DNA of 64,000 nucleotides from Streptomyces phyllanthi (GTDB taxonomy: Bacteria; Actinomycetota; Actinomycetes; Streptomycetales; Streptomycetaceae), in contig NZ_VJZE01000006.1 in NCBI RefSeq assembly GCF_009377205.1, positions 1 through 64,000 on the forward strand. Reading direction: 5' to 3'. The notes below the pieces were generated by a model. That model was given only the letters and a program-made list of their open reading frames with translations, did no database searches and was not told the origin of the DNA. Positions 48,393-62,581 of this stretch are shown in pieces (position 1 is the first letter of the stretch; each line of letters begins with the position of its first letter). The position numbers and the translations under genes were made by a program.

Positions 48393-50129
48393 TCAGAGCG
48401 CGGAGGAGGATGTCGATTCGGTGGAGACGGTCCTGTCCGAGGACTCGGAGGGACCGATACGGATCTCGAAGTCGCCGTCGTACTTCTCGTGGCCGGCGAT
48501 GACGGCTGTCTCGATGGCTTCCTTGCCCATCCGCCCACGGATGATGAGCGGGTCCTGGCGCAGATCGCGGGTGAGTGCGAGGCACAACCCGACCATCACC
48601 AGGGTGAAGGGGGCCGCCGCGAGGATGGTGAGGTTCTGCAGCCCGGTGAGCGCGTCGCCCTTGCCGCCGCCGATGAGCAGCATGATCGCGGCGACCGCCC
48701 CGGTCAGCACGCCCCAGAACACCACGACGGGCCGGGTCGGTTCCAGGGACCCGCGCTGCGAGAGCGTCCCCATCACGATCGAGGCGGCGTCGGCGCCGGA
48801 GACGAAGAAGATCCCGACGAGGATCATCACCACGATGCTCGTCACGGTGGCGATCGGGTACTGCTGGAGCACGTCGAAGAGCTGGCCCTGGGCCGTCGCG
48901 GCGTCGCTGAGGCGCTTTTCGTCCTGCAGGTGCATCGCCGAGCCGCCGAAGATCGCGAACCACAGCAGGCTGACCGTGCTGGGCACCAGGATGACCCCGC
49001 CCACGAACTGCCGGATGGTCCGGCCACGGCTGATACGCGCGATGAACATGCCGACGAAGGGCGTCCAGGAGATCCACCAGGCCCAGTAGAAGACCGTCCA
49101 GCCGGCCAGCCAGTCGGCGACTCCCTCACCGCTGGACGCCTCGGTACGCCCGGCCATCTCGGTCAGATCACCCAGGAACGCACCGATGGAGGTGGGCAGC
49201 AGGTCGAGGATGAAGATGGTCGGGCCGACGAGGAACACGAAGACCGCCAGGGTCACCGCCAGCACCATGTTGATGTTGGACAGCCACTGGATGCCCTTCT
49301 CGATCCCGGACACCGCCGAGGCGACGAACGCCACCGTCAGCACCGCGATCACGACGACCAGCAGTCCCGTGCCGACCGATCCCAGCCAGCCCAGTCCGGT
49401 GAAGCCGCTGCCGATCTGCAGGGCGCCGAGCCCCAGGGAGGCCGCAGAGCCGAAGAGGGTGGCGAAGATGGCCAGGATGTCGATGACCCGGCCGCCCCAG
49501 CCGTTCGCCCGCTTCTCACCGATCAGCGGGGTGAAGACGGCACTGATCAGCTGCCGGCGTCCACGCCGGAAGGTGCTGTAGGCGATGGCCAGACCCACGA
49601 CCGCGTACATCGCCCACGGGTGCAGCGTCCAGTGGAAGAGGGTCGTGGCCATGGCGGTCTCCATGGCCTGGGCGGCGTCGGCCGGGTCGGTGCCCGGCGG
49701 TGGCGTGATGAAGTGCGACAGCGGTTCGCTCACGCCGTAGAACATCAGGCCGATGCCCATACCCGCGCTGAACATCATCGCGATCCACGAGACCGTACGG
49801 AACTCCGGCTGCTCACCCTCCTTGCCGAGGGTGATCCGCCCGTAGCGGCTCATCGCCAGCCAGAGGGCGAAGACGACGAAGCCCGAGGCGGCGAGGACGA
49901 ACGCCCAGCCGCCGTTTCGGATGGTCCCGTCCAGCAGCGTCCCGGACACGCTCTCCAGCGTGTCGGTCGCCGTTGCTCCCCATATGACGAAGGCGAGGGT
50001 GAGGGCCGCGGCGACGCCGAAGACGACGGGGTCCGTCCGAGGGCTGGAGGTGGTCGCCGGGCTTCCCGGCAGATCTGCCTCGACGGGATGGCTTCGGCTC
50101 CCGTCCGCTGCGGGTGTTGTTTTTGTCAT
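48393..50129 (-). CDS. BCCT-family betaine/choline/carnitine transporter
   Basis: This 578-aa protein has twelve predicted helices. Signatures are FSAGMGIGLMFYGVSEPLSH (the glycine-rich helix 3), FHWTLHPWAMYAVVGLAIAY and YWAWWISWTPFVGMFIARIS then RGRTIRQFV (the Trp-rich substrate box and conserved cytoplasmic motif). The C-terminus is Ser-rich and short. It should import a quaternary amine such as glycine betaine by Na+ or H+ symport. ATG at 50129 follows GAAAGGAC. It lies downstream of the Rieske oxygenase gene in the same direction, so it most likely feeds the demethylation pathway. No GTTGCG operator pair was seen directly upstream. Confidence 0.93.
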   Translation of the reverse strand: MTKTTPAADGSRSHPVEADLPGSPATTSSPRTDPVVFGVAAALTLAFVIWGATATDTLESVSGTLLDGTIRNGGWAFVLAASGFVVFALWLAMSRYGRITLGKEGEQPEFRTVSWIAMMFSAGMGIGLMFYGVSEPLSHFITPPPGTDPADAAQAMETAMATTLFHWTLHPWAMYAVVGLAIAYSTFRRGRRQLISAVFTPLIGEKRANGWGGRVIDILAIFATLFGSAASLGLGALQIGSGFTGLGWLGSVGTGLLVVVIAVLTVAFVASAVSGIEKGIQWLSNINMVLAVTLAVFVFLVGPTIFILDLLPTSIGAFLGDLTEMAGRTEASSGEGVADWLAGWTVFYWAWWISWTPFVGMFIARISRGRTIRQFVGGVILVPSTVSLLWFAIFGGSAMHLQDEKRLSDAATAQGQLFDVLQQYPIATVTSIVVMILVGIFFVSGADAASIVMGTLSQRGSLEPTRPVVVFWGVLTGAVAAIMLLIGGGKGDALTGLQNLTILAAAPFTLVMVGLCLALTRDLRQDPLIIRGRMGKEAIETAVIAGHEKYDGDFEIRIGPSESSDRTVSTESTSSSAL

Positions 50130-50289: not shown

Positions 50290-51411
50290 TCAGGCGCTGA
50301 GCATCTTCTGCAGCCACGTGTGGAAGCCGCCGATGTGGTGCTCGCTGGGGACGAGGACACCGCCCCTGGCGTAGGCGCGGGAGCTCATCCCCGGCTGGGT
50401 GCGCTCGCAGGCATCGAAGTCCTGCAGGTTGACGCGGTGAAAGAGCTCCACCGACCGGTCCACGTCCTTGCCGCTCTCCACGACATGGGGGAGGTAGAGC
50501 CAGTCGCACTCCACGACCGTGCGGTCGTGCGCCACCGGGTACATACGGTGGAAGATCACGTGGTCGGGCACGAGGTTGATGAAGACCTGGGGCTTGACCG
50601 TGATCGCGTAGTAGCGACGGTCCTGCTCCTCGGCGACGCCGGGGATGCGGTCCAGGCCCTCGGAGCCGTCGACGGTGAAGCCCTGGACCTCCTCACCGAA
50701 CTCGGCGCCGTGGCCGACGTAGTACTGAGCCGCGTAGCCGTCCGCGAACTCGGGCAGGACCTCCGTCAGTTCCGGGTGGATGGTCGCGCAGTGGTAGCAC
50801 TCCATGAAGTTCTCGATGATGAGCTTCCAGTTGGCCTTGACGTCGTAGGTGATCCTCCGGCCCACCTGGAGGTCATCGATCCCGTAGCGCTCGATCGACT
50901 CGACGTCGCCGAGCCGCTCGATGATCGCGCCGAGCACGTCGTCCTCGAAGGACGGCGGGGTGTCGGCGAGGCACACCCAAACAAAACCGAGCCATTCCCG
51001 GACGTGGACGTTGATCAGGCCGTACTCGACCCTGTCGATGTCCGGCATCGACGTCAGGTTGGGCGCGGCGACCAGCTTGCCGTCCAGACCGTAGGTCCAG
51101 GCGTGGTAGGGGCACTGGAAGGCGCGCTTGACCTCGCCCGACTCCTCCGTGCACAGCTTGGCACCGCGGTGCCGGCAAACGTTCAGAAAGGCCTTGATCG
51201 AGCCGTCCCGGGAGCGGGAGACCAGCACGCTCTCCCGCCCGACCTGGTAGGTGCGGAACTGACCGGGCTTGGCCAGGTCGGAGGCGCGGGCCGCGCAGAA
51301 CCACATGGCCTCGAAGATCCGCTCCTGCTCCAGGGCGAAGATCTCCGGGTCGGTGTAGTGCTCCCCGGACAGCGTGGAGATCAGGCTGGAGGGCAGGTTC
51401 GTCAGGGTCAT
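50290..51411 (-). CDS. gbcA: Rieske oxygenase alpha subunit, glycine-betaine demethylase type
   Basis: The protein has 373 aa. The Rieske [2Fe-2S] centre is CRHRGAKL with CPYHAWTYG (about 78-104). The mononuclear iron site is in NWKLIIENFMECYHCATIHP (His/His), with the Asp further on. The size and ENFMECYHC motif fit GbcA/stachydrine-demethylase (Stc2) proteins, which remove one methyl from glycine betaine or stachydrine as formaldehyde. Electrons probably come from the Rieske ferredoxin and reductase at 61080-62581, since no GbcB-type reductase is adjacent. ATG at 51411 follows GAAGGTG. It is the last clear catabolic gene of the operon that begins at 54518. Confidence 0.88.
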   Translation of the reverse strand: MTLTNLPSSLISTLSGEHYTDPEIFALEQERIFEAMWFCAARASDLAKPGQFRTYQVGRESVLVSRSRDGSIKAFLNVCRHRGAKLCTEESGEVKRAFQCPYHAWTYGLDGKLVAAPNLTSMPDIDRVEYGLINVHVREWLGFVWVCLADTPPSFEDDVLGAIIERLGDVESIERYGIDDLQVGRRITYDVKANWKLIIENFMECYHCATIHPELTEVLPEFADGYAAQYYVGHGAEFGEEVQGFTVDGSEGLDRIPGVAEEQDRRYYAITVKPQVFINLVPDHVIFHRMYPVAHDRTVVECDWLYLPHVVESGKDVDRSVELFHRVNLQDFDACERTQPGMSSRAYARGGVLVPSEHHIGGFHTWLQKMLSA

Positions 51412-51432: not shown

Positions 51433-52581
51433 TCAGACGCGCACACGGCGGGGGTCGAACAGGGCGATGGAGTGCTTGGTGGTGCCTTCGGTGGCCAGGT
51501 CGGCGAGGATCTCGCCGACCACGGGTACGAACTTGAAGCCATGGCCGGAGAACCCGCACGCCACGGTCACCCGGGGGTGGTCGGGGTGCTGGGAGACGAC
51601 GAAGTGCTCGTCGGCGGTGTTGGCATACATGCAGGCCGCGGCCTTGAGGAAGCTGCCGGGCAGGGTGGGGATACGCGTGCGCAGGTACTCGGACATGGCC
51701 GTGATCTCGTCCGGGTGGATCCGTCGGTCGAGGCTGTCCGGGTCGCTGGGGACGCCCTTGCGGAAGAAGGCGACCTTGGCGCCGCCTTCGGCTCCGTCGA
51801 GGGCGGGGAAGCCGTAGATCCGGGTGCCGTCCGGGTCCTCCCAGATGTAGACGGGGTGCCGGTCGGCGGAGAACGGGCCGACACCGCTCTCGGGCTGGAA
51901 CCAGTACATGACCTGCCGTTCCACTGTCACGTTCACGCCCAGGTCGGGGAGGAGCTTGGAAGCCCACGCCCCGGGGGCGATGACCAGCCGGTCGGCGGTG
52001 TACGCGCCGCGGTCGGTGACCACCCAGGCCTTGCGGCCGGGTCCGTCGGCCTCCCAGCCGAGCACGCCCTCCGCGAAGTGAAGCTCGGCGCCATGGGCCT
52101 GGGCCAGTTCCAGGTGGGCGGTGACGGTCGCCTCCGGCAGGGCCACGCCCGCTCTGCGCTCGTGGAAGCCGACGTCCTCGGCGGCGGGGCGGAACGTCGG
52201 GAAGCGCCGCCTGATGTCGGCGGCGGTGAGGACCTCGTGGTCCAGGTCCCATCGCCGGGCGCTGTCCAGGGTGCCGGCGAATGCCGCGCTGCTCTCGCGG
52301 CCGATCATCAGGCCGCCGGTTTCGATGAAGACCTCCCGTCCCGAGTCGACCGCGAGCTTCTCCCACAGTTCGTGGGCACGGAGCAGCAGGGGAACGTAGG
52401 CGGAGTCCTCGAAGTAGGCCTGCCGGTAGATGCGGGATCCACCGTGGCTGGAGCCGAGGTTGTGGGCCGGGCCGAAGCGCTCCAGGCCGAGCACTCGCCG
52501 GCCGCGGGCGGCGAGGTGGTAGGCGGCCGCGCTGCCCATCCCGCCCAGACCGACGACGATCACGTCGTACGAAGCGGGCAT
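51433..52581 (-). CDS. Monomeric sarcosine oxidase / N-methyl amino acid oxidase
   Basis: This 382-aa flavoprotein of the MSOX/MTOX type has the dinucleotide fold [37 protein letters not shown], and the covalent-FAD Cys in [14 protein letters not shown] with [20 protein letters not shown] at the end. It oxidises sarcosine (or N-methylproline) to glycine (proline), formaldehyde and H2O2. The second ATG at 52581 was chosen because AGGAG is 6 nt upstream; ATG at 52587 overlaps the ribosome site. It lies between the dimethylglycine-oxidase stub and gbcA. Confidence 0.9.
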
Positions 52582-52679
52582 GTCCATCTCCTGGATCTTG
52601 CTGACGATGCGGTGGTGGTGCGGGGTGCCTCGGGGCGGTTCGGCGCCGGATACGGGACATCCCGGGGTCCCCGGGCGGT

Positions 52680-52772
52680 GACGTCCGTCCAGCCGCGCGC
52701 TGTCGGTTCGTCGCTGGGCGCGCAGCCGACGGTGCCGGCACCGATGACGACCACCTCCGGCCGTGCCGCCAT
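52680..52772 (-). pseudogene. Stub of a dimethylglycine/sarcosine dehydrogenase-type gene
   Basis: From ATG 52772, with a strong GGAGGAAG, the frame reads [20 protein letters not shown] then [12 protein letters not shown]. This is the FAD-binding start of dimethylglycine-oxidase-type proteins (normally VVxIGAGIVGxxLADELxxRGW, over 800 aa). The match ends after about 31 residues and the frame continues as unrelated Pro/Arg-rich sequence to 52560. Leu-to-Pro changes inside the helix suggest decay. Only the translation start and first strand-loop-helix remain, lying exactly where the middle enzyme of betaine demethylation would be expected. Confidence 0.7.
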
Positions 52773-52806: not shown

Positions 52807-53436
52807 TCAGTGTCCGCGGGCGACCCAGGCGTCGAGGTCGGGTGCTTCGGCTCCGATGGATGTCGTACTGCCGTGTCCGGTGTGGACGGTGGTCTCGGCG
52901 GGGAGGGTGAGCAGCCGGTCTCGGATCGAGGCGATGATGGTGCCGAAGTCGGAGTACGAGCGCCCGGTGGCGCCCGGGCCGCCCTGGAAGAGGGTGTCGC
53001 CGGAGAACAGGGCCTCCAGCTCCGGCGCGTGGAGGCAGACCGCTCCGGGAGAGTGCCCGGGGGTGTGCAGCACGTACAGTTCCGTGCCGGCGACGGCCAG
53101 CAGCTCGCCGTCGACCAGCTCCCAGTCGGGTTCCCGCTCCGGGTGGACGGCCTTCCACAGCACCGTGTCGGCGGGATGGAGCAGGACGGGTGCGCCGAAG
53201 CGGGCGGCGAGCTCCGGGGCTGCGTTGATGTGGTCGTTGTGGGCGTGGGTGCACACGATGGCGACCAGGCGCCGGGTGCCGACCGCCGCGGCGATCGCCG
53301 CGGCGTCGTGCGCGGCGTCGATGACGATGACCTCCCGGTCGTCGCCGACCAGCCAGACGTTGTTCTCCACCTCCCAGCTGCCGCCGTCCAGTTGGAAGGT
53401 GCCGGAGGTGACCAGGTGCTCGATCCGCGCGGTCAC
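52807..53436 (-). CDS. MBL-fold hydrolase (glyoxalase II-like)
   Basis: This 209-aa metallo-beta-lactamase-fold protein has the metal motif [20 protein letters not shown] (HxHxDH), [13 protein letters not shown] (His), [17 protein letters not shown] (Asp) and [13 protein letters not shown] (His). Start GTG at 53436 overlaps the mscR stop (GTGA), so it is translationally coupled. This pair is common in actinobacteria; the hydrolase is thought to cleave S-formylmycothiol to formate and mycothiol (from memory). Formaldehyde released by the oxygenase and sarcosine oxidase would pass through both enzymes. Confidence 0.88.
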
Positions 53437-54518
53437 AGGATCACCACCGAGCGCAGGACCTCGCCGCGGTGCATCTTCTCGAACGCCGTCTCCACCTGGT
53501 CCAGCGCGATCTCCTCGCTGACGAAGGCGTCCAGGTCGAGGCGTCCCTGCAGGTAGAGGTCGATCAGGGCGGGGAAGTCCCGGGAGGGCAGGCAGTCGCC
53601 GTACCAGGAGGACTTCAGTGCCCCGCCGCGGCCGAAGACGTCCAGCAGCGGCAGCTCCAGCTTCGTCTCGGGCGTGGGTACGCCCACGAGGACGACCGTG
53701 CCGGCCAGGTCGCGGGTGTAGAAGGCCTGCTCGTAGGTCTCGGGACGGCCCACCGCGTCCACGACGACGTCGGCGCCGAATCCGCCCGTCAGGGCGCGGA
53801 TGGCCTCGACGGCGTCGGTCCGGGAGGAGTTGACGGTGTCGGTGGCGCCGAAGGACCCGGCCCGCTCCAGCTTCCGCTCGTCGACGTCGACGGCGATGAT
53901 GCGGCTCGCGCCGGCCACCTTGGCGCCGGCGATGGCGGCCATGCCCACGCCTCCGCAGCCGATCACGGCGATCGAGTCGCCCCGGCCGACAGCGCCGGTG
54001 TTGACCGCGGCACCGAACCCGGCCATCACGCCGCAGCCGAGCAGGCCCGCCGCGGCGGCTGATGCCGCCCTATCGACCTTGGTGCACTGTCCGGAGGCAA
54101 CGAGCGTCTTCTCGGCGAACGCGCCGATGCCGAGCGCGGGGGCGAGCGGCGTACCGTCGAGCAGCGTCATGGGCTGGGTCGCGTTGTGTGTCGAGAAGCA
54201 GTACCACGGCTTGCCCTTGCTGCAGGCGCGGCACTGGCCGCAGACCGCACGCCAGTTGAGGACGACGAAGTCGCCGGGCGCGACGTCCGTGACGCCTTCG
54301 CCGACCGCCTCGACCACCCCTGCGGCCTCGTGACCGAGCAGGAAGGGGAACTCGTCGTTGATTCCGCCCTCCCGGTAGTGGAGGTCGGTGTGGCAGACAC
54401 CGCACGCCCGGACCTGCACCAGCGCCTCACCCGGGCCGGGGTCCGGCACCAGGATGTTCTCCACCGAGACGGCAGCGCCTTTCTTCAGGGCGACGACGGC
54501 GCGTACCTCGTGGGTCAT
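53433..54518 (-). CDS. mscR: S-(hydroxymethyl)mycothiol dehydrogenase
   Basis: This 361-aa zinc alcohol dehydrogenase is close to MscR/AdhE2. Catalytic zinc ligands are in [17 protein letters not shown] and [17 protein letters not shown]; the structural-zinc Cys cluster is in [18 protein letters not shown]; the NAD fold is [20 protein letters not shown] with VDVDERKL. It oxidises the mycothiol-formaldehyde adduct. It is first in the leftward operon mscR-MBL-stub-sarcosine oxidase-gbcA and behind an operator pair at 54657-54692. Mycothiol dependence supports an actinobacterial host. Confidence 0.92.
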
Positions 54519-55330: not shown

Positions 55331-56152
55331 ATGAGCAACAATCCGCAGGGGCGGCAAGGGCTTCCGGAGAAGTCGGACGCTCCCTTCCACGCAGAGTCTC
55401 CGGTGCAGTCGGTGGACCGCGCTGTGGGCATCCTCGAACTCCTCGGGCGCCGGGGCCAGGCAGGTGTCACCGAGATCGCCGCTGAACTGGGAGTGCACAA
55501 GTCGACGGCGTCCCGGCTCGCCGCCACCCTGGAGCTGCGTGGCCTCATCGAGCAAACGGACGAGCGAGGCAGGTACCGCCTGGGCCTCGGTCTGGTCCGC
55601 CTGGCGAGCGCCGCAGCAGTCCGACCGGACCTGTCCCAGCAGAGCCGCCCGGTCTGCGAGCAGTTGGCTTCGCAGGTCGCGGAGACCATCAACCTCGCAG
55701 TCCTGGACGAGGACGCCGCCGTCAACATCGACCAGGTGCTCGGCCCCTCCACCATCACCACGCACAACTGGTTGGGGCGGCGTACGCCCTTGCACGCCAC
55801 CTCCAGCGGCAAGGTACTCCTGGCGCATCTCCCCGAGTCCGTGCTCGAAAGCAGGCTCGCCACTCCTCTGGAGAGCCACACGCCGCGCACCGTCACCCAG
55901 CCGGACGTCCTGCGGGCGCAGTTGCGGCGCGCCCTCGGGGATGGCTGCGCCTACAGCTTCGAGGAGCTCGAAACAGGCCTCAACGCCGTGGCCGCACCCA
56001 TCTTCACCTTCAATGGGCAGGTGGTGGCCGCCCTCAGCGTCTCAGGGCCCTCGTTCCGGCTGACCGAGGAGCGTCTGGTCGACATCTCCCCCGTGGTACG
56101 GGCCGCGGCCGGGGAGATCTCCGCCCGGCTGGGCCATCTTCGCTCCGGCTGA
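55331..56152 (+). CDS. IclR-family transcription regulator
   Basis: The protein has 273 aa. The winged helix (about 24-90) reads SPVQSVDRAVGILELLGRRG, VTEIAAELGVHKSTASRLAA, TLELRGLIEQTDERGRYRLG. The effector domain contains VNIDQVLGPSTITTHNWLG, PLHATSSGKVLLAHLPE and FEELETGLNAVAAPIFTFNG. The start ATG at 55331 lacks a good ribosome site but overlaps the stop of a 6-codon frame (ATG at 55314 after AAGGAC), so it may be translated by coupling. It is inferred to control the betaine-demethylation promoters through the paired GTTGCG sites. The effector is unknown. Confidence 0.9.
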   Translation: MSNNPQGRQGLPEKSDAPFHAESPVQSVDRAVGILELLGRRGQAGVTEIAAELGVHKSTASRLAATLELRGLIEQTDERGRYRLGLGLVRLASAAAVRPDLSQQSRPVCEQLASQVAETINLAVLDEDAAVNIDQVLGPSTITTHNWLGRRTPLHATSSGKVLLAHLPESVLESRLATPLESHTPRTVTQPDVLRAQLRRALGDGCAYSFEELETGLNAVAAPIFTFNGQVVAALSVSGPSFRLTEERLVDISPVVRAAAGEISARLGHLRSG

Positions 56153-57343: not shown

Positions 57344-59659
57344 TCAAGCACTCGGGGACGCGCCGACGGAGGCCGCTTCCAACCGGACGACGATGGACTT
57401 CGACGTGGGGGTGTTGCTGATGGCTGCCGTGGAGTCCACGGGTACCAGGACGTTGGTCTCGGGAAAGTAGGCGGCGCAGCAGCCTCGGGGCGTCGGGTAC
57501 GAGACCGTTCGGAAGGCCGGTGCCCTGCGCTCCACGCCGTCCCCGTACTCGCTGACGATGTCGACCAGGTCCCCGTCGGCCAGCCCTCGTTCGGCGAGGT
57601 CGTCGGGGTGCAGGAAGAGGACCCGCCGCCCCTGGTGGATGCCGCGGTAGCGGTCGTCCAGGCCGTAGATGGTGGTGTTGTACTGGTCGTGGGAGCGGAG
57701 CGTCTGCAACAACAGCCGGCCCGGCGGGACGTGCGGCCTCTCCAGCACGTTGGCGGTGAAGTTGGCCAGGCCGGTGGAGGTGGTGAACCGGCGTTCGTCG
57801 CGCGGGGGGTGGGGCAGGGCGAAGCCGCCCGGCTGCCGTACCCGGGCATTGAAGTCCTCGAAGCCGGGGATCACGCGTTCGATGCGGTCACGGATACGGT
57901 CGTAGTCCGACTCGAACTCCTCCCACGGCACCGGGGAGCCGGCGTCCCCCAGAGTCGCCCGTGCCATGCGGCAGATGATCGCGACCTCGCTGAGCAGATG
58001 CTCGGACGCGGGCTTGAGCCGCCCCCGGGAGAGGTGCACCATGCCCATGGAGTCCTCCACCGTCACCAACTGCGGCCCGGTCGGCCGCAGGTCGGCTTCG
58101 GTTCGGCCGAGGCAGGGGAGGATGAGTGCCTGCTCCCCGGCGATGACGTGCGATCGATTGAGCTTGGTCGAGATCTGGACGGTGAGGCGACAGCGCCTGA
58201 GCGCCTGTTCGGTCAGGTCGGTGTCGGGGGCCGCGGCGACGAAGTTGCCGCCCAGGGCGACGAAGACCCGCACCTGGCCGTCGCGCATGGCGCGGATGCT
58301 CTCCACCGCGTCGTGACCGTGGTGCCGCGGGGGCGTGAACGCGAACTCGCTGCCGAGCGCGTCCAGGAACGCGTCACCGGGTTTTTCGTAGATGCCCATC
58401 GTCCGGTCGCCCTGCACGTTGGAATGGCCGCGTACCGGGCAGAGGCCGGCGCCCGGACGGCCGATGTTGCCGCGGAGCAGAAGGAAGTTCACGACATCGC
58501 GGATGGTGGGCACCGAGTGGTGGTGCTGGGTGAGCCCCATCGCCCAGCAGACGACGGTCTTCTCGGCGGCCAGCACGTGGCGGAAGGCCTCCCGGATCTC
58601 CTCCTCGGGCAGGCCGGTGGCCTCCAGGATGTCGTCCCACGACGCCTTGCGGGCGTGCTCGGCGAACTCCTGGAAGCCATGCGTGTACCGGTCGATGAAA
58701 GAGGTGTCGAGGACCGTGCCGGGGGCTTCGTTCTCCGCCTCCAGCAGCATGCGGTTGAAGGCCTGGAACAGCGCCTGGTCTCCGCCCAGCCTGATCTGCA
58801 GGAACTGGTCGGCCAACCGTGTGCCGCCGCCGAGGACGCCGGAGGGCCTCTGGGGGTTCTTGAACCGGAGCAGCCCTGCCTCGGGCAGGGGGTTGACCGC
58901 GATGACGCGGGCGCCCCGGCGCTTGGCCTCTTCCAGTGCGGAGAGCATGCGGGGGTGGTTGGTGCCGGGGTTCTGGCCGACCACGAGGATGAGATCGGCC
59001 TCATAGAGGTCGTCCAGGCTGACGCTGCCCTTGCCGATGCCGATGGTCTCCGTCAGAGCCGATCCGCTCGACTCGTGGCACATGTTGGAGCAGTCCGGCA
59101 GGTTGTTGGTGCCGAACATCCGGACGAAGAGCTGATAGACGAACGCGGCCTCGTTGCTCGCCCGTCCGGAGGTGTAGAAGGCGGCCTGATCGGGGTGGTC
59201 GAGCGCGGCGAGTTCCCGGGCGATGACGGCGAACGCGTCGTTCCAGGAGATCGGCCGGTAACGGTCGCTGCCCGCCGGGCGGTACATGGGGTGGGTGAGA
59301 CGTCCCTGCTGCCCGAGCCAGTAGTCGGTGCGGGGAAGCAGCTCTTCCAGGGTGTGGTCGGCGAAGAAGTCAGGGGTGACGCGGCGGACGGTGGCCTCCT
59401 CGGCCACCGCCTTGGCCCCGTTCTCGCAGAACTCCGCCCGGTGCCGGTGCTCCGGCTCGGGCCAGGCGCAGCCCGGACAGTCGAAGCCCTTTTTCTGGTT
59501 GACCTGGAGCAGGGTGAGCAGACTGCGGCGGGCCCCCATCTGTTCGCCGGCGTGCCGCAGCGAGGAGGTGACCGCGGGGATTCCGGCGGCGTATTCCTTC
59601 GGGGGGCCCACCCGCAGACGGGCGTCGCCGGGGTCCTCAGCAGGTGCCTTGCGGGTCAT
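57344..59659 (-). CDS. FdhF/YdeP-type molybdopterin oxidoreductase (formate dehydrogenase-like)
   Basis: The protein has 771 aa from ATG 59659 (TRKAPAEDPGDARLRVGPPK), with GGAGTGG upstream; ATG 59698 would add 13. Features: FDCPGCAWPEPEHRHRAEFC (Cys cluster of this subfamily), FYTSGRASNEAAFVYQLFVR, NNLPDCSNMCHESSGSALTE, ILVVGQNPGTNHPRMLSALE, CPVRGHSNVQGDRTMGIYEK, ALGGNFVAAAPDT, and a C-terminal domain with SHDQYNTTIYG. Members oxidise formate or are of unknown substrate (YdeP). Divergent from purU, which makes formate, so formate disposal is the natural role. Operator pair 59756-59790 precedes it. Confidence 0.85.
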   Translation of the reverse strand: MTRKAPAEDPGDARLRVGPPKEYAAGIPAVTSSLRHAGEQMGARRSLLTLLQVNQKKGFDCPGCAWPEPEHRHRAEFCENGAKAVAEEATVRRVTPDFFADHTLEELLPRTDYWLGQQGRLTHPMYRPAGSDRYRPISWNDAFAVIARELAALDHPDQAAFYTSGRASNEAAFVYQLFVRMFGTNNLPDCSNMCHESSGSALTETIGIGKGSVSLDDLYEADLILVVGQNPGTNHPRMLSALEEAKRRGARVIAVNPLPEAGLLRFKNPQRPSGVLGGGTRLADQFLQIRLGGDQALFQAFNRMLLEAENEAPGTVLDTSFIDRYTHGFQEFAEHARKASWDDILEATGLPEEEIREAFRHVLAAEKTVVCWAMGLTQHHHSVPTIRDVVNFLLLRGNIGRPGAGLCPVRGHSNVQGDRTMGIYEKPGDAFLDALGSEFAFTPPRHHGHDAVESIRAMRDGQVRVFVALGGNFVAAAPDTDLTEQALRRCRLTVQISTKLNRSHVIAGEQALILPCLGRTEADLRPTGPQLVTVEDSMGMVHLSRGRLKPASEHLLSEVAIICRMARATLGDAGSPVPWEEFESDYDRIRDRIERVIPGFEDFNARVRQPGGFALPHPPRDERRFTTSTGLANFTANVLERPHVPPGRLLLQTLRSHDQYNTTIYGLDDRYRGIHQGRRVLFLHPDDLAERGLADGDLVDIVSEYGDGVERRAPAFRTVSYPTPRGCCAAYFPETNVLVPVDSTAAISNTPTSKSIVVRLEAASVGASPSA

Positions 59660-59755
59660 CTTCTGCGCCACTCCGCGGTGTAGGGGAATCAGGGCCATTC
59701 CATCGCCGGGCGTCGCGGCCGGTCGTTCCGGGAGCCGCCACCCAGGCCACAGGCG

Positions 59756-59790: not shown

Positions 59791-59865
59791 TTCCCTAAGG
59801 AAGCCCGACCGGCGGGCCCCTGTCAAGACCACCCCTTGACCCGACCGCCCTCCGACTCCCAGGAT

Positions 59866-59901
59866 GTTGCGCATCGCTCACCGCGTTGCGCAATACGAAG
59901 C
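59866..59901. promoter_or_regulatory. Operator pair 4, purU promoter
   Basis: GTTGCG-CATCG-CTCACC at 59866-59882 and GTTGCG-CAATA-CGAAGC at 59885-59901 are 19 bp apart and follow TTGACC (59836-59841) by 24 bp, just ahead of the purU ribosome site. Confidence 0.65.
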
Positions 59902-59914
59902 ATCGGAGGAAATC

Positions 59915-60787
59915 ATGCCCCCTCGTCCGCAACCCGGCCGCGAGTTCGTCCTGGCCCTCTCCTGCGCCGAACAGGCCGGACTCGTCCACGCCGTCAGCGG
60001 CTTCCTCGTCCAGCACTCCGGCAACATCCTGGAGAGCCGGCAGTTCGACGACCGACTGCACGACCGCTTCTTCATGCGGGTGCACTTCGAGATCTCCGAC
60101 CCCGGCACCGGACTGCAGGAGCTGCGTTCCGGTTTCACACCGGTGGCGGAGGCGTTCGGGATCGCCTGGCGGATGCACGACGCCTCGTCGCCGACGCGCA
60201 CGCTGCTGATGGTGTCGAAGTTCGGCCACTGCCTGAACGACCTGCTGTTCCGCATGAGTGCGGGCGCCCTCAACATCGACGTCCCGGCAATCGTCTCCAA
60301 CCACCGCGATCTCCAGCCGCTCGCGGAGAGTTACGGCATCCCCTTCCACCACATCCCGGTGACCCGGGAGACGAAGACCGAGGCGGAGGGGCGGCTGATG
60401 GAGCTGGTCGACGAGCTCGGTGTCGACCTGGTGGTACTGGCCCGCTACATGCAGATCCTCTCGGACGACCTGTGCAAGCGGCTCGACGGCCGAGCCATCA
60501 ACATCCACCACTCCTTCCTGCCGAGCTTCAAGGGGGCACGGCCGTACCGCCAGGCGCACGAGCGCGGCGTGAAGCTGGTCGGAGCCACCGCCCACTACGT
60601 CACCCCGGACCTGGACGAGGGGCCGATCATCGAACAGGACGTCGTCCGCGTGGACCACGCGCACGACCCGGACGAGCTGGCCGCCGTCGGCCGGGATGTC
60701 GAGGCGAAGGTGCTGGCCCGGGCCGTGGAGTGGCACAGCCAGAGCCGCGTGATGACCAACGGGAACCAGACCGTGATCTTCCGCTGA
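59915..60787 (+). CDS. purU: Formyltetrahydrofolate deformylase
   Basis: The protein has 290 aa. The N-terminal ACT domain (about 8-90) has FVLALSCAEQAGLVHAVSGF and LVQHSGNILESRQFDD; the C-terminal formyltransferase-like hydrolase has MVSKFGHCLNDLLFRMSAG, IPFHHIPVTRETK, INIHHSFLPSFKGARPY (catalytic His) and GATAHYVTPDLDEGPIIEQD (catalytic Asp). It splits 10-formyl-THF to formate and THF, recycling folate during demethylation. ATG at 59915 follows CGGAGGAAAT. It is divergent from the formate-dehydrogenase-like gene. Confidence 0.95.
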   Translation: MPPRPQPGREFVLALSCAEQAGLVHAVSGFLVQHSGNILESRQFDDRLHDRFFMRVHFEISDPGTGLQELRSGFTPVAEAFGIAWRMHDASSPTRTLLMVSKFGHCLNDLLFRMSAGALNIDVPAIVSNHRDLQPLAESYGIPFHHIPVTRETKTEAEGRLMELVDELGVDLVVLARYMQILSDDLCKRLDGRAINIHHSFLPSFKGARPYRQAHERGVKLVGATAHYVTPDLDEGPIIEQDVVRVDHAHDPDELAAVGRDVEAKVLARAVEWHSQSRVMTNGNQTVIFR

Positions 60788-60912: not shown

Positions 60913-60946
60913 TTCTCTTGACAACCCTCTCGCCCCCGGAAAACAT

Positions 60947-60982
60947 GTTTCGAATAACGAATCATGTTGCGCTATGCGAGAC
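60947..60982. promoter_or_regulatory. Operator pair 5, Rieske ferredoxin promoter
   Basis: GTTTCG-AATAA-CGAATC at 60947-60963 and GTTGCG-CTATG-CGAGAC at 60966-60982 are 19 bp apart and follow TTGACA (60918-60923) by 23 bp. Confidence 0.7.
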
Positions 60983-61079
60983 AACTTTCCGATTCGACTT
61001 CCCTTCCCCGTCCCCAACCGGGAATCCGCCCCGGTCGACGGCTCCCGCCCCTGCCGGGCACCCGCAACGGAGGTTCCCC

Positions 61080-61400
61080 ATGATCACGGTGTGCCGGATC
61101 GAAGACCTGCCGCCTGGAGAGTCCATGCGTGTCACCGACGGCGTTCCAGCCCCCATCGCGCTGTTCAACGCCGACGGCGCGGTGTACGCCATTGACGACA
61201 CCTGCACGCATCAGGACGCCTCACTGGCCGACGGCTGGCTGGAGGGCTGCTTCGTCGAATGCCCCCTTCACGCGGCGTCGTTCGACCTCCGCACCGGTCG
61301 GCCGACGTGCTTGCCGGCCAAGGCGCCGGTCCGTACCTACCCGGTCACCGTGGAGGACGGCCACGTCCTGCTCCACGTCAGCGTCGGGGAGCCCGTGTGA
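61080..61400 (+). CDS. Rieske-type [2Fe-2S] ferredoxin
   Basis: This 106-aa protein has both Rieske boxes: CTHQDASLADG and CPLHAASFDLRTG (Cys-x-His and Cys-x2-His pattern), preceded by MITVCRIEDLPPGE. It is a soluble electron carrier between the following reductase and a ring-hydroxylase-type oxygenase, most likely the alpha subunit at 50290-51411 under the same operator type. ATG at 61080 follows CGGAGG. Confidence 0.92.
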   Translation: MITVCRIEDLPPGESMRVTDGVPAPIALFNADGAVYAIDDTCTHQDASLADGWLEGCFVECPLHAASFDLRTGRPTCLPAKAPVRTYPVTVEDGHVLLHVSVGEPV

Positions 61401-62581
61401 AGACGATCGCTGTCATCGGAGCCTCACTCGCAGGCCTCAGTACGGTGCGCGCACTGCGCACCGAGGGCTACGACGGCGACATCGTCGTCGTGGGCGAGGA
61501 GCGCCACCAGCCCTATGACCGACCGCCGTTGTCCAAGGACTTCCTCAAGGGCGATATCAGCGCCGACGCACTCGCGCTCGGCAGCGCGGAGGAGTACGAG
61601 GAGCTGCGGGTACGGTGGCTGCTCGGACGGCGCGCGGTCGGCCTCGACCCCGCGGCCCGCGCCATCACCCTGTCCGACGGCCAGGAGCTGCACGCCGACG
61701 GCGTGGTCATCGCGACCGGCGCCGGCGCCCGGACGGTCCCGGGCGCCGACGGGCTTGCCGGCATCCACACCCTCCGCTCCCTGGACGATGCCGAGGCCCT
61801 GCGCGCGGATCTCCTGAACGGTCTGCCCCGAGTCGTCGTCATCGGCGCCGGCTTCGTCGGAGCCGAGGTTGCCTCCACCGCCCACCGGCTCGGGCTGCAG
61901 GTCACCGTCATCGAGGCGCTCGACGTGCCACTCGAGCGCGCCCTCGGCCGCGAGATGGGCCTGCTGTGCTCCTCCCTGCACACCGATCACGGAGTGCGCC
62001 TGCAGTGCGGAACCGGCGTGACCGGGTTCAGTTCGGGGAACGGCCGCGTCACCGGGGTGCATCTGGCCGACGGGCGCCTGGTGCCCGCCGACGTCGTCCT
62101 GGTCGGAGTCGGCGTGCGGCCCGCCACCGACTGGCTGGCCGGTTCCGGCGTCCACGTCGACGACGGCGTGGTCTGCGACACCGGATGCGCGACCAACGTC
62201 CCTCAGGTGGTGGCTGTCGGTGACGTCGCCCGCTGTCCTCACCCCTTCACCGGGCGCCACGCACGCATCGAGCACTGGACCAGTGCCATGGAGCAGGCCG
62301 GCACCGCGGCCCGCACCCTGCTCTCCGGCACATCCGCACCGCCTCCCTCCCGTCCCCCCTACTTCTGGTCCGACCAGTACCGGATACGCATTCAGCTCGC
62401 CGGGCACGTCCTCCCCGGCGACCGGCCCGAACTGCTCGACGGCGACTACGAAAGCCGTTCCTTCACGGCCGTTTACCGGCGCGAGGGCCACCCCGTCGCG
62501 GTTCTCGCCATGGACCAGCCGAAGCTCTTCAACCGGCTCCGCCGCACACTTGTCCCGGCCGTCGCGGCAGCCGCCCCGTGA
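61397..62581 (+). CDS. FAD-dependent ferredoxin reductase
   Basis: This 394-aa pyridine-nucleotide reductase of the oxygenase-coupled type (BphA4/RhdA4-like) has IAVIGASLAGLSTVRALRTE, RPPLSKDFLKGDI, VVIATGAGARTVPG, VVVIGAGFVGAEVASTAHRL (NAD fold) and VAVGDVARCPHPFTGRHARI with EHWTSAMEQAGTAARTL. Start GTG at 61397 overlaps the ferredoxin stop (GTGA), so the two are co-translated. NADH electrons pass through this protein and the ferredoxin to the Rieske oxygenase. Confidence 0.92.
   Translation: MKTIAVIGASLAGLSTVRALRTEGYDGDIVVVGEERHQPYDRPPLSKDFLKGDISADALALGSAEEYEELRVRWLLGRRAVGLDPAARAITLSDGQELHADGVVIATGAGARTVPGADGLAGIHTLRSLDDAEALRADLLNGLPRVVVIGAGFVGAEVASTAHRLGLQVTVIEALDVPLERALGREMGLLCSSLHTDHGVRLQCGTGVTGFSSGNGRVTGVHLADGRLVPADVVLVGVGVRPATDWLAGSGVHVDDGVVCDTGCATNVPQVVAVGDVARCPHPFTGRHARIEHWTSAMEQAGTAARTLLSGTSAPPPSRPPYFWSDQYRIRIQLAGHVLPGDRPELLDGDYESRSFTAVYRREGHPVAVLAMDQPKLFNRLRRTLVPAVAAAAP

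Follow-up and report, generated by a model that had tools for sequence, protein, structure and literature searches.

A decayed dimethylglycine oxidase gene in a Streptomyces operon and an intact paralogue encoded beside ETF genes

A short open reading frame (ORF) just upstream of solA in Streptomyces phyllanthi is, by comparison with intact relatives, a pseudogene, the remains of DMGO_A, a dimethylglycine oxidase (DMGO) gene of the Arthrobacter type that once lay between the gene for an MBL-fold hydrolase and solA. Sequence comparison demonstrates the deletion that created it, the decay of what was left, the recurrence of such losses in related operons and the presence elsewhere in the genome (contig C399) of an intact paralogue associated with ETF genes. 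In our judgment the best explanation, held with good confidence, is that the stub is a decayed relic whose loss was tolerated thanks to the C399 enzyme, a member of the DMGO family that would handle dimethylglycine via ETF. Ordinary decay of a redundant oxidase is most likely, and the pathway is probably unbroken.

The operon and its surroundings

The window, a stretch of 64,000 nucleotides, lies on contig C666 of a 10.27-Mb draft genome in 939 contigs (G000). Its minus-strand operon has the order MscR, MBL-fold hydrolase, stub, SolA, Rieske oxygenase and BCCT transporter. The features, with the evidence for each, are as follows.

48393..50129, minus strand: BCCT transporter (best NCBIfam model, glycine betaine uptake, 556.3 of 650 bits, below cut-off; TIGR00842 bcct above cut-off)
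50290..51411, minus strand: Rieske oxygenase of the betaine/stachydrine/carnitine demethylase group, intact (family search, PDB match)
51433..52587, minus strand: SolA, monomeric sarcosine/N-methyl amino acid oxidase family, intact, with translation perhaps beginning at the second ATG, 52581 (NF008425, 463.6 bits, cut-off 257)
52560..52772, minus strand: the stub, an accidental 70-codon ORF from a head-tail fusion (ORF list; no family match)
52640..52669, minus strand: DMGO_A tail, its last nine codons (DPGMSRIRR) and former stop, TGA now CGA (intact end DPEMSRIRR-stop)
52671..52772, minus strand: DMGO_A head, start codon and codons 1-34 (alignment to intact DMGO_A of eight relatives)
52783-52776, minus strand: retained ribosome-binding site GGAGGAAG (sequence reading)
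52807..53436, minus strand: MBL-fold hydrolase, in some relatives fragmented or fused to the DMGO tail (family models)
53433..54518, minus strand: MscR, S-(hydroxymethyl)mycothiol dehydrogenase, formaldehyde oxidation (TIGR03451, 680.4 bits, cut-off 512.9)
55331..56152, plus strand: IclR-family regulator adjoining the operon (family models)
57344..59698, minus strand: FdhA-like molybdopterin oxidoreductase (identity by reading only)
59864..60787, plus strand: PurU, formyltetrahydrofolate deformylase (TIGR00655, 346.3 bits, cut-off 285.95)
within ORF 60918-61400: Rieske-type ferredoxin, ahead of the ferredoxin reductase (NF007422 above cut-off)
61391..62581, plus strand: ferredoxin reductase (reductase models below cut-off)

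Some relatives, such as L052, L056 and L208, also encode a homologue of the FdhA-like protein close to their betaine genes.

The best PDB match of SolA is sarcosine oxidase; the protein falls short of the cut-off of the soxA_mon model TIGR01377 (298.8 of 479.65 bits) and passes that of the N-methyltryptophan oxidase model NF008425. It carries a Cys, presumably the one that links FAD, and a Lys that we take to be oxygen-activating. All 81 SolA sequences compared have Phe at the site aligned with what we take to be His269 of MSOX, and the motif of the KVAFF region and the FAD-linking Cys are common to these sequences, from operons with and without DMGO; since the motif is the same in both, there is no sign that the substrate of SolA has changed. 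SolA may be the only sarcosine oxidase of this genome, because SoxA-like frames (with a GcvT part, at least ~960 residues) were found in the other 14 of 15 genomes and none in the window genome, a search of that genome with GCV_T included.

Has the operon as a whole changed its substrate? The sequence-only reading had offered, as one way to do without the oxidase, a compound with only two N-methyls, such as stachydrine, that would make DMGO needless. The Rieske oxygenase lends this idea something: its best PDB match is 3vca, which we take to be Stc2, it scores 222.9 of 670 bits against the NCBIfam GbcA model NF058607, below the cut-off and indicating a related family only, and it is kept in most operons that have no DMGO_A. 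However, it is 87-90% identical to the Rieske proteins of relatives that keep DMGO just upstream of SolA, the examined SolA motif is unchanged with or without DMGO, and the C399 island holds choline-type and betaine transport genes. The stachydrine-type substrate thus finds no support in these comparisons, and we regard such a switch as improbable.

A relic of DMGO_A

The stub ORF begins with an ATG at 52772, just 3' of GGAGGAAG, and its opening resembles an FAD-dependent DMGO; the strong ribosome site and FAD-type start described from the letters alone are indeed retained. Nor was it wrong to see that, upstream of solA and the Rieske gene, a gene of the DMGO type had been cut to a stub. When window positions 52850-51433 were used as the query against the 392 genomes of the genus, the head DNA matched the starts of relatives' DMGO genes: in G244 at 87% over 126 bases (E 6.1e-37), in G121 at 76% over 176 bases, and in many more genomes among the matches listed at 81-87% over stretches of ~77-86 bases. 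These similarities are well beyond chance. Of the 31 codons originally assigned to the truncated head, the truncation stands and the number does not: alignment to intact relatives gives 34.

The sequence past the head, first taken to be unrelated, proves to be DMGO_A's own. Positions 52669-52643 encode its last nine codons, DPGMSRIRR against the intact DPEMSRIRR, in a frame that differs from the head's; the tail's stop, TGA, is CGA in the window. The 36 stub codons past the head are this out-of-frame tail followed by intergenic DNA, and the ORF overlaps the start of the solA ORF by 28 bases. Matches break sharply near window position 52670 (BLAST query 178-181/182): seven of the matches listed (G121, G367, G267, G177, G244, G128 and G036) start on the tail side at the identical query base, and most head-side matches stop at query 173-181. 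Comparison with strains having an intact gene, the check proposed at the outset, explains the break: in G244, 2,315 bases separate the two halves, and an intact DMGO_A, collinear with the stub's head and tail, bridges the gap. On these alignments, a single internal deletion of about 2,315 bases brought the last nine codons, out of frame, directly behind codon 34.

Head and tail thus lie collinear with the intact orthologue and in the syntenic place, as is expected of a pseudogene, and the DAO, FAO_M and GCV_T domains of a functional DMGO are absent from a stub that has only 34 head codons; no Pfam or NCBIfam model matches the ORF. In the explanation that we favor, DMGO_A was lost by this one deletion, and the relic is decaying and would yield no more than a meaningless peptide of 70 residues. 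Near both ends of the deletion, a direct repeat of 8 bases, CGTCACCG, was seen by eye; it lies off the best-fitting junction, and a repeat-mediated deletion is not claimed. A plasmid search with the locus returned 54 records, none of which covers 80% of the query. In the literature, nothing was recognized on the stub or on an ETF-linked dimethylglycine dehydrogenase in Streptomyces, weak evidence of absence given that subscription journals were mostly outside the scope of the search.

The head bears the marks of decay. In the 33 codons after Met, it departs from the consensus of eight intact heads at eight codons nonsynonymously and at five synonymously; an Ile of the FAD motif has become Thr, and two Leu have become Pro. 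Every one of the eight intact heads is at most one nonsynonymous codon away from the consensus. Pairwise pN/pS values, rough because the sequences are short, are 0.50-0.83 for the window head against four intact relatives, 0.27-0.31 for SolA and 0.19-0.20 for the Rieske oxygenase against the same four, and 0.22-0.26 for MscR and 0.32-0.40 for the MBL-fold hydrolase against three relatives (the L050 rows for the last two were dropped: the genes are non-adjacent there and a distant match had been aligned). Among themselves, the intact heads give a pooled pN of 0.011 and pS of 0.085 (n = 7). The differences point, if roughly, to decay of the DMGO_A head under relaxed constraint, and SolA, the Rieske oxygenase and MscR appear to stay constrained.

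If its coding sequence is failing, why does the stub keep a good ribosome site? It could serve as a small leader ORF that loads ribosomes and, through the 28-base overlap, couples solA translation to the upstream genes; the site is intact and the stub's stop falls just inside solA. Yet the peptide is decaying, the head-tail fusion occurs at no other locus among the matches listed, the DMGO gene stops before solA, with zero overlap, in all eight aligned intact operons, and G007, which has lost the head entirely, still has an intact solA. The stub RNA folds no better than its shuffles (z 0.40), an ordinary value that also led us to reject a regulatory RNA over the stub; a scan for promoters and terminators was uninformative. 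A role as leader ORF is therefore unlikely. An independent small gene, an outcome that the sequence-only reading had allowed for, was rejected on the same decay of the head and the same confinement of the fusion to this locus among the matches listed.

The relic of DMGO_A might still be an artefact of a draft in 939 contigs, the more so as two paralogous betaine clusters could mislead an assembler. A misjoin, however, does not create the many changes in the head and the lost tail stop codon; the site is away from the contig end, and other lesions occupy the same slot in other species, including the single-contig genome G007. An artefact is accordingly very improbable, more so than any other alternative considered here.

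Recurrent loss of DMGO_A

Loss at this position is recurrent. Twenty-one operons with a window-type SolA, the window's own among them, were compared after duplicate genome copies had been merged (L049/G121, L050/G244, L054/G130, L055/G356, L058/G204 and L060/G367). DMGO_A is kept in nine (L046-L051, L057, L059 and L165) and lost in the other 12, with lesions of several kinds. G007 has lost the head altogether and keeps only tail-region DNA; in L060 and L158 the front of the MBL gene is fused to the DMGO tail through joints that differ; L159 has three scattered DMGO pieces; and no DMGO was found beside solA in L052-L056, L058 and L161. Mapped on the SolA tree, these require at least 7-11 losses, the figure varying with the treatment of weak branches, with L165 pruned from the count because its SolA is poorly aligned in the middle (58%). 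The MBL fusions of L060 (= L157) and L158 keep the final 36-44 DMGO_A codons behind the MBL front and represent a deletion unlike the window's.

Genomes that lose DMGO_A are not left without the family. All 15 genomes searched whole have at least one full-length DMGO-family gene, and each of the nine that have this SolA and lack DMGO_A has another member: DMGO_B in seven, the ETF-associated type in G000 and G007.

The operon also varies around the DMGO_A slot. In L043 (G001) and L044 (G013) it consists of MscR, Rieske and ferredoxin reductase genes only, with no MBL, DMGO_A or SolA match between them; L164/L058 (Streptomyces himastatinicus) and L210 have MscR, MBL, SolA and ferredoxin reductase genes with no Rieske gene after SolA; Rieske pieces are found elsewhere in the island (in L210), and a full-length relative lies far off in the genome. 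Upstream of the operon in L161 (852-5944) is a cluster that reads as soxBDAG, a heterotetrameric sarcosine oxidase, and GcvT-half matches lie at comparable places in L050, L051, L053-L055 and L060. An apparent “split DMGO” upstream in relatives was rejected as a replacement: by size, order and reading (one locus examined), it is soxBDAG.

An intact paralogue among ETF genes

The gene at C399:5503-8004 is an intact ORF of 834 amino acids, free of stops, with the DAO, FAO_M, GCV_T and GCV_T_C domains of a full-length family member; no other full-length gene of the DMGO family was found in the assembly. Next come EtfB-like and EtfA-like genes, whose best NCBIfam matches are below the curated cut-offs, and a gene for a membrane Fe-S protein that matches M. 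smegmatis EtfD (9ojn) at 660 bits; the enzyme is thus encoded with the genes expected for linkage to ETF, EtfB and EtfA being assigned by similarity below cut-offs. The surrounding island includes, above cut-offs, GlyA, L-serine ammonia-lyase, FolD and a glycine betaine ABC transporter (OpuAC, ProV), as well as an aldehyde dehydrogenase, a PurU relative, a GMC oxidoreductase (choline dehydrogenase by reading) and a second Rieske-ferredoxin reductase-MBL-MscR set. By reading, the island would lead from choline through betaine, glycine and serine to pyruvate.

The earlier claim that the stub removes the middle step between the Rieske oxygenase and sarcosine oxidase is therefore not established, and its author's other suggestion, that another enzyme covers the step, is consistent with the intact C399 paralogue. 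An intact functional paralogue had been named as the finding that would undo the claim: by sequence, such a gene is there and intact, with a putative function. With a further member of the DMGO family present, the genome could probably afford the loss of DMGO_A, the two enzymes being, as we infer, redundant. This FAD- and folate-type enzyme would oxidize dimethylglycine to sarcosine, hand the methyl carbon to tetrahydrofolate and, rather than reduce oxygen, feed its electrons into the quinone pool by way of ETF and EtfD; SolA would then turn sarcosine into glycine.

Does the C399 enzyme act on dimethylglycine at all? It could use some other N-methyl compound, leaving dimethylglycine as a dead end or to an unrelated enzyme. 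It is only ~37% identical to DMGO_A, and of two residues that we take to be in the active site of AgDMGO (positions counted on the alignment), His225 is kept and Tyr259 is replaced by Cys. The six Streptomyces copies all have Cys at the latter site, and the 11 from other families have either Cys or Met. It is mainly because DMGO and DMGDH both keep Tyr there that the substrate calls for caution and could differ; the change from HAPG to HASN in all six Streptomyces copies adds to the doubt. Against this, His225 is retained, the gene context is one of betaine transport, FolD, GlyA and Etf, and the gene's slot is shared with DMGO_B in two relatives. We consider a different substrate unlikely, though not to the degree of the alternatives above, and continue to favor dimethylglycine.

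The enzyme is closer to DMGO (1PJ5, 496 bits) than to DMGDH (4PAB, 298 bits), and a motif sets its type apart. Around the presumed FAD-binding His, all 17 ETF-type ORFs (six from Streptomyces, 11 others) read HASNFI, whereas, of the 89 other DMGO-type ORFs, 88 have HAPGLV and one does not cover the site (106 ORFs, no motif filter, some sharing genomes). In a study of human DMGDH, a proline and a valine near the DMGO flavin are proposed to admit oxygen, where DMGDH has alanine and isoleucine (PMC5082570). The difference between HAPGLV and HASNFI may correspond to the oxygen gatekeeper of that study.

The ETF module and a possible exchange

Between the ProX and FolD genes, G244 and G231 have DMGO_B, and the window genome and G007 have a module of GntR, EtfD, EtfA, EtfB and DMGDH-type genes. 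The module also adjoins FolD in G022, G343, G263 and G401; its far flank is ProX in G343 and G401, an IclR-Rieske set in place of ProX in G022, and the end of the contig in G263. G263 also has a more distant SolA operon (L217, on C299), in which there is no DMGO match and the Rieske gene is represented by its end alone.

EtfD-like copies at least 92% identical occur in six of the 392 genomes of the genus, the same six that have the C399-type enzyme, and in all six this enzyme is the sole DMGO-family gene found (E up to 1e-60). A DMGO-family match of another type is present in 179 of the remaining 386 (0/6 against 179/386, p 0.025, uncorrected for relatedness); this survey scored at most two candidates per genome, which undercounts second copies, whereas the search for the six module genomes scored every candidate. 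Among 394 genomes of the class, relatives 73-84% identical are found in one other family and relatives 60-66% identical in several more. EtfB and EtfA relatives lie 3' of the homologue in all 11 loci inspected from other families, where the examined DNA ends before any EtfD. This distribution suggests, short of proof, that the module was transferred into Streptomyces.

It is tempting to see here an exchange: in the six Streptomyces, an oxygen-consuming DMGO would have been swapped within the island for an ETF-EtfD-linked dimethylglycine dehydrogenase module, after which oxidase copies, including the stub, were lost. We put this forward tentatively, as somewhat less probable than its converse. 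Of the nine genomes searched whole that lack DMGO_A, seven have DMGO_B and no ETF module, so the loss can be explained without a swap. If the exchange did occur, nature would have replaced an oxidase by a dehydrogenase, with the states before and after both known and with a module core common to other actinomycete families, and this possible exchange is the part worth testing. The stub alone is routine decay of a redundant operon gene, and a warning that one decayed gene is poor ground for predicting a broken pathway. The system is useful in that relatives preserve DMGO_A intact, half lost and fully lost, and that the subfamily of the surviving enzyme sits with ETF genes; if that subfamily does oxidize dimethylglycine, actinomycetes would offer matched oxidase/dehydrogenase pairs for testing what controls reactivity with oxygen.

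Loci L219-L229 belong to a wider actinomycete DMGO/DMGDH-like subfamily, with EtfBA genes following in the 11 inspected and Cys or Met for Tyr259.

Relation to known systems

Arthrobacter globiformis DMGO (1PJ5) is the counterpart of the lost gene: the intact DMGO_A orthologue of L049 matches it over its full length at 1,092 bits, and the stub head starts alike, although 34 N-terminal and nine C-terminal codons are all that is left in the stub. Mitochondrial DMGDH (4PAB, 5L46) aligns with the C399 paralogue over nearly the whole length, and the neighboring genes suggest that ETF is likewise its acceptor; the match to 4PAB is nevertheless only ~297 bits, and the Tyr259 equivalent is Tyr in DMGDH and Cys in the C399 enzyme.

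Pseudomonas DgcA probably belongs to a family other than the FAD and folate type, to which the C399 dehydrogenase is assigned. An EtfD-family Fe-S protein is likewise present in Pseudomonas DgcAB with ETF and in the mycobacterial EtfD system. According to PMC13083937, such proteins are considered to accept electrons from ETF, and DgcB is an EtfD homologue in dimethylglycine catabolism. The glyA-soxBDAG-sdaA-purU clusters of Arthrobacter and Corynebacterium, as described in PMC3534580, follow the same one-carbon and glycine-to-pyruvate logic; unlike them, the window genome, in which no SoxA-like frame was found, has a Rieske oxygenase, SolA and the ETF-associated module.
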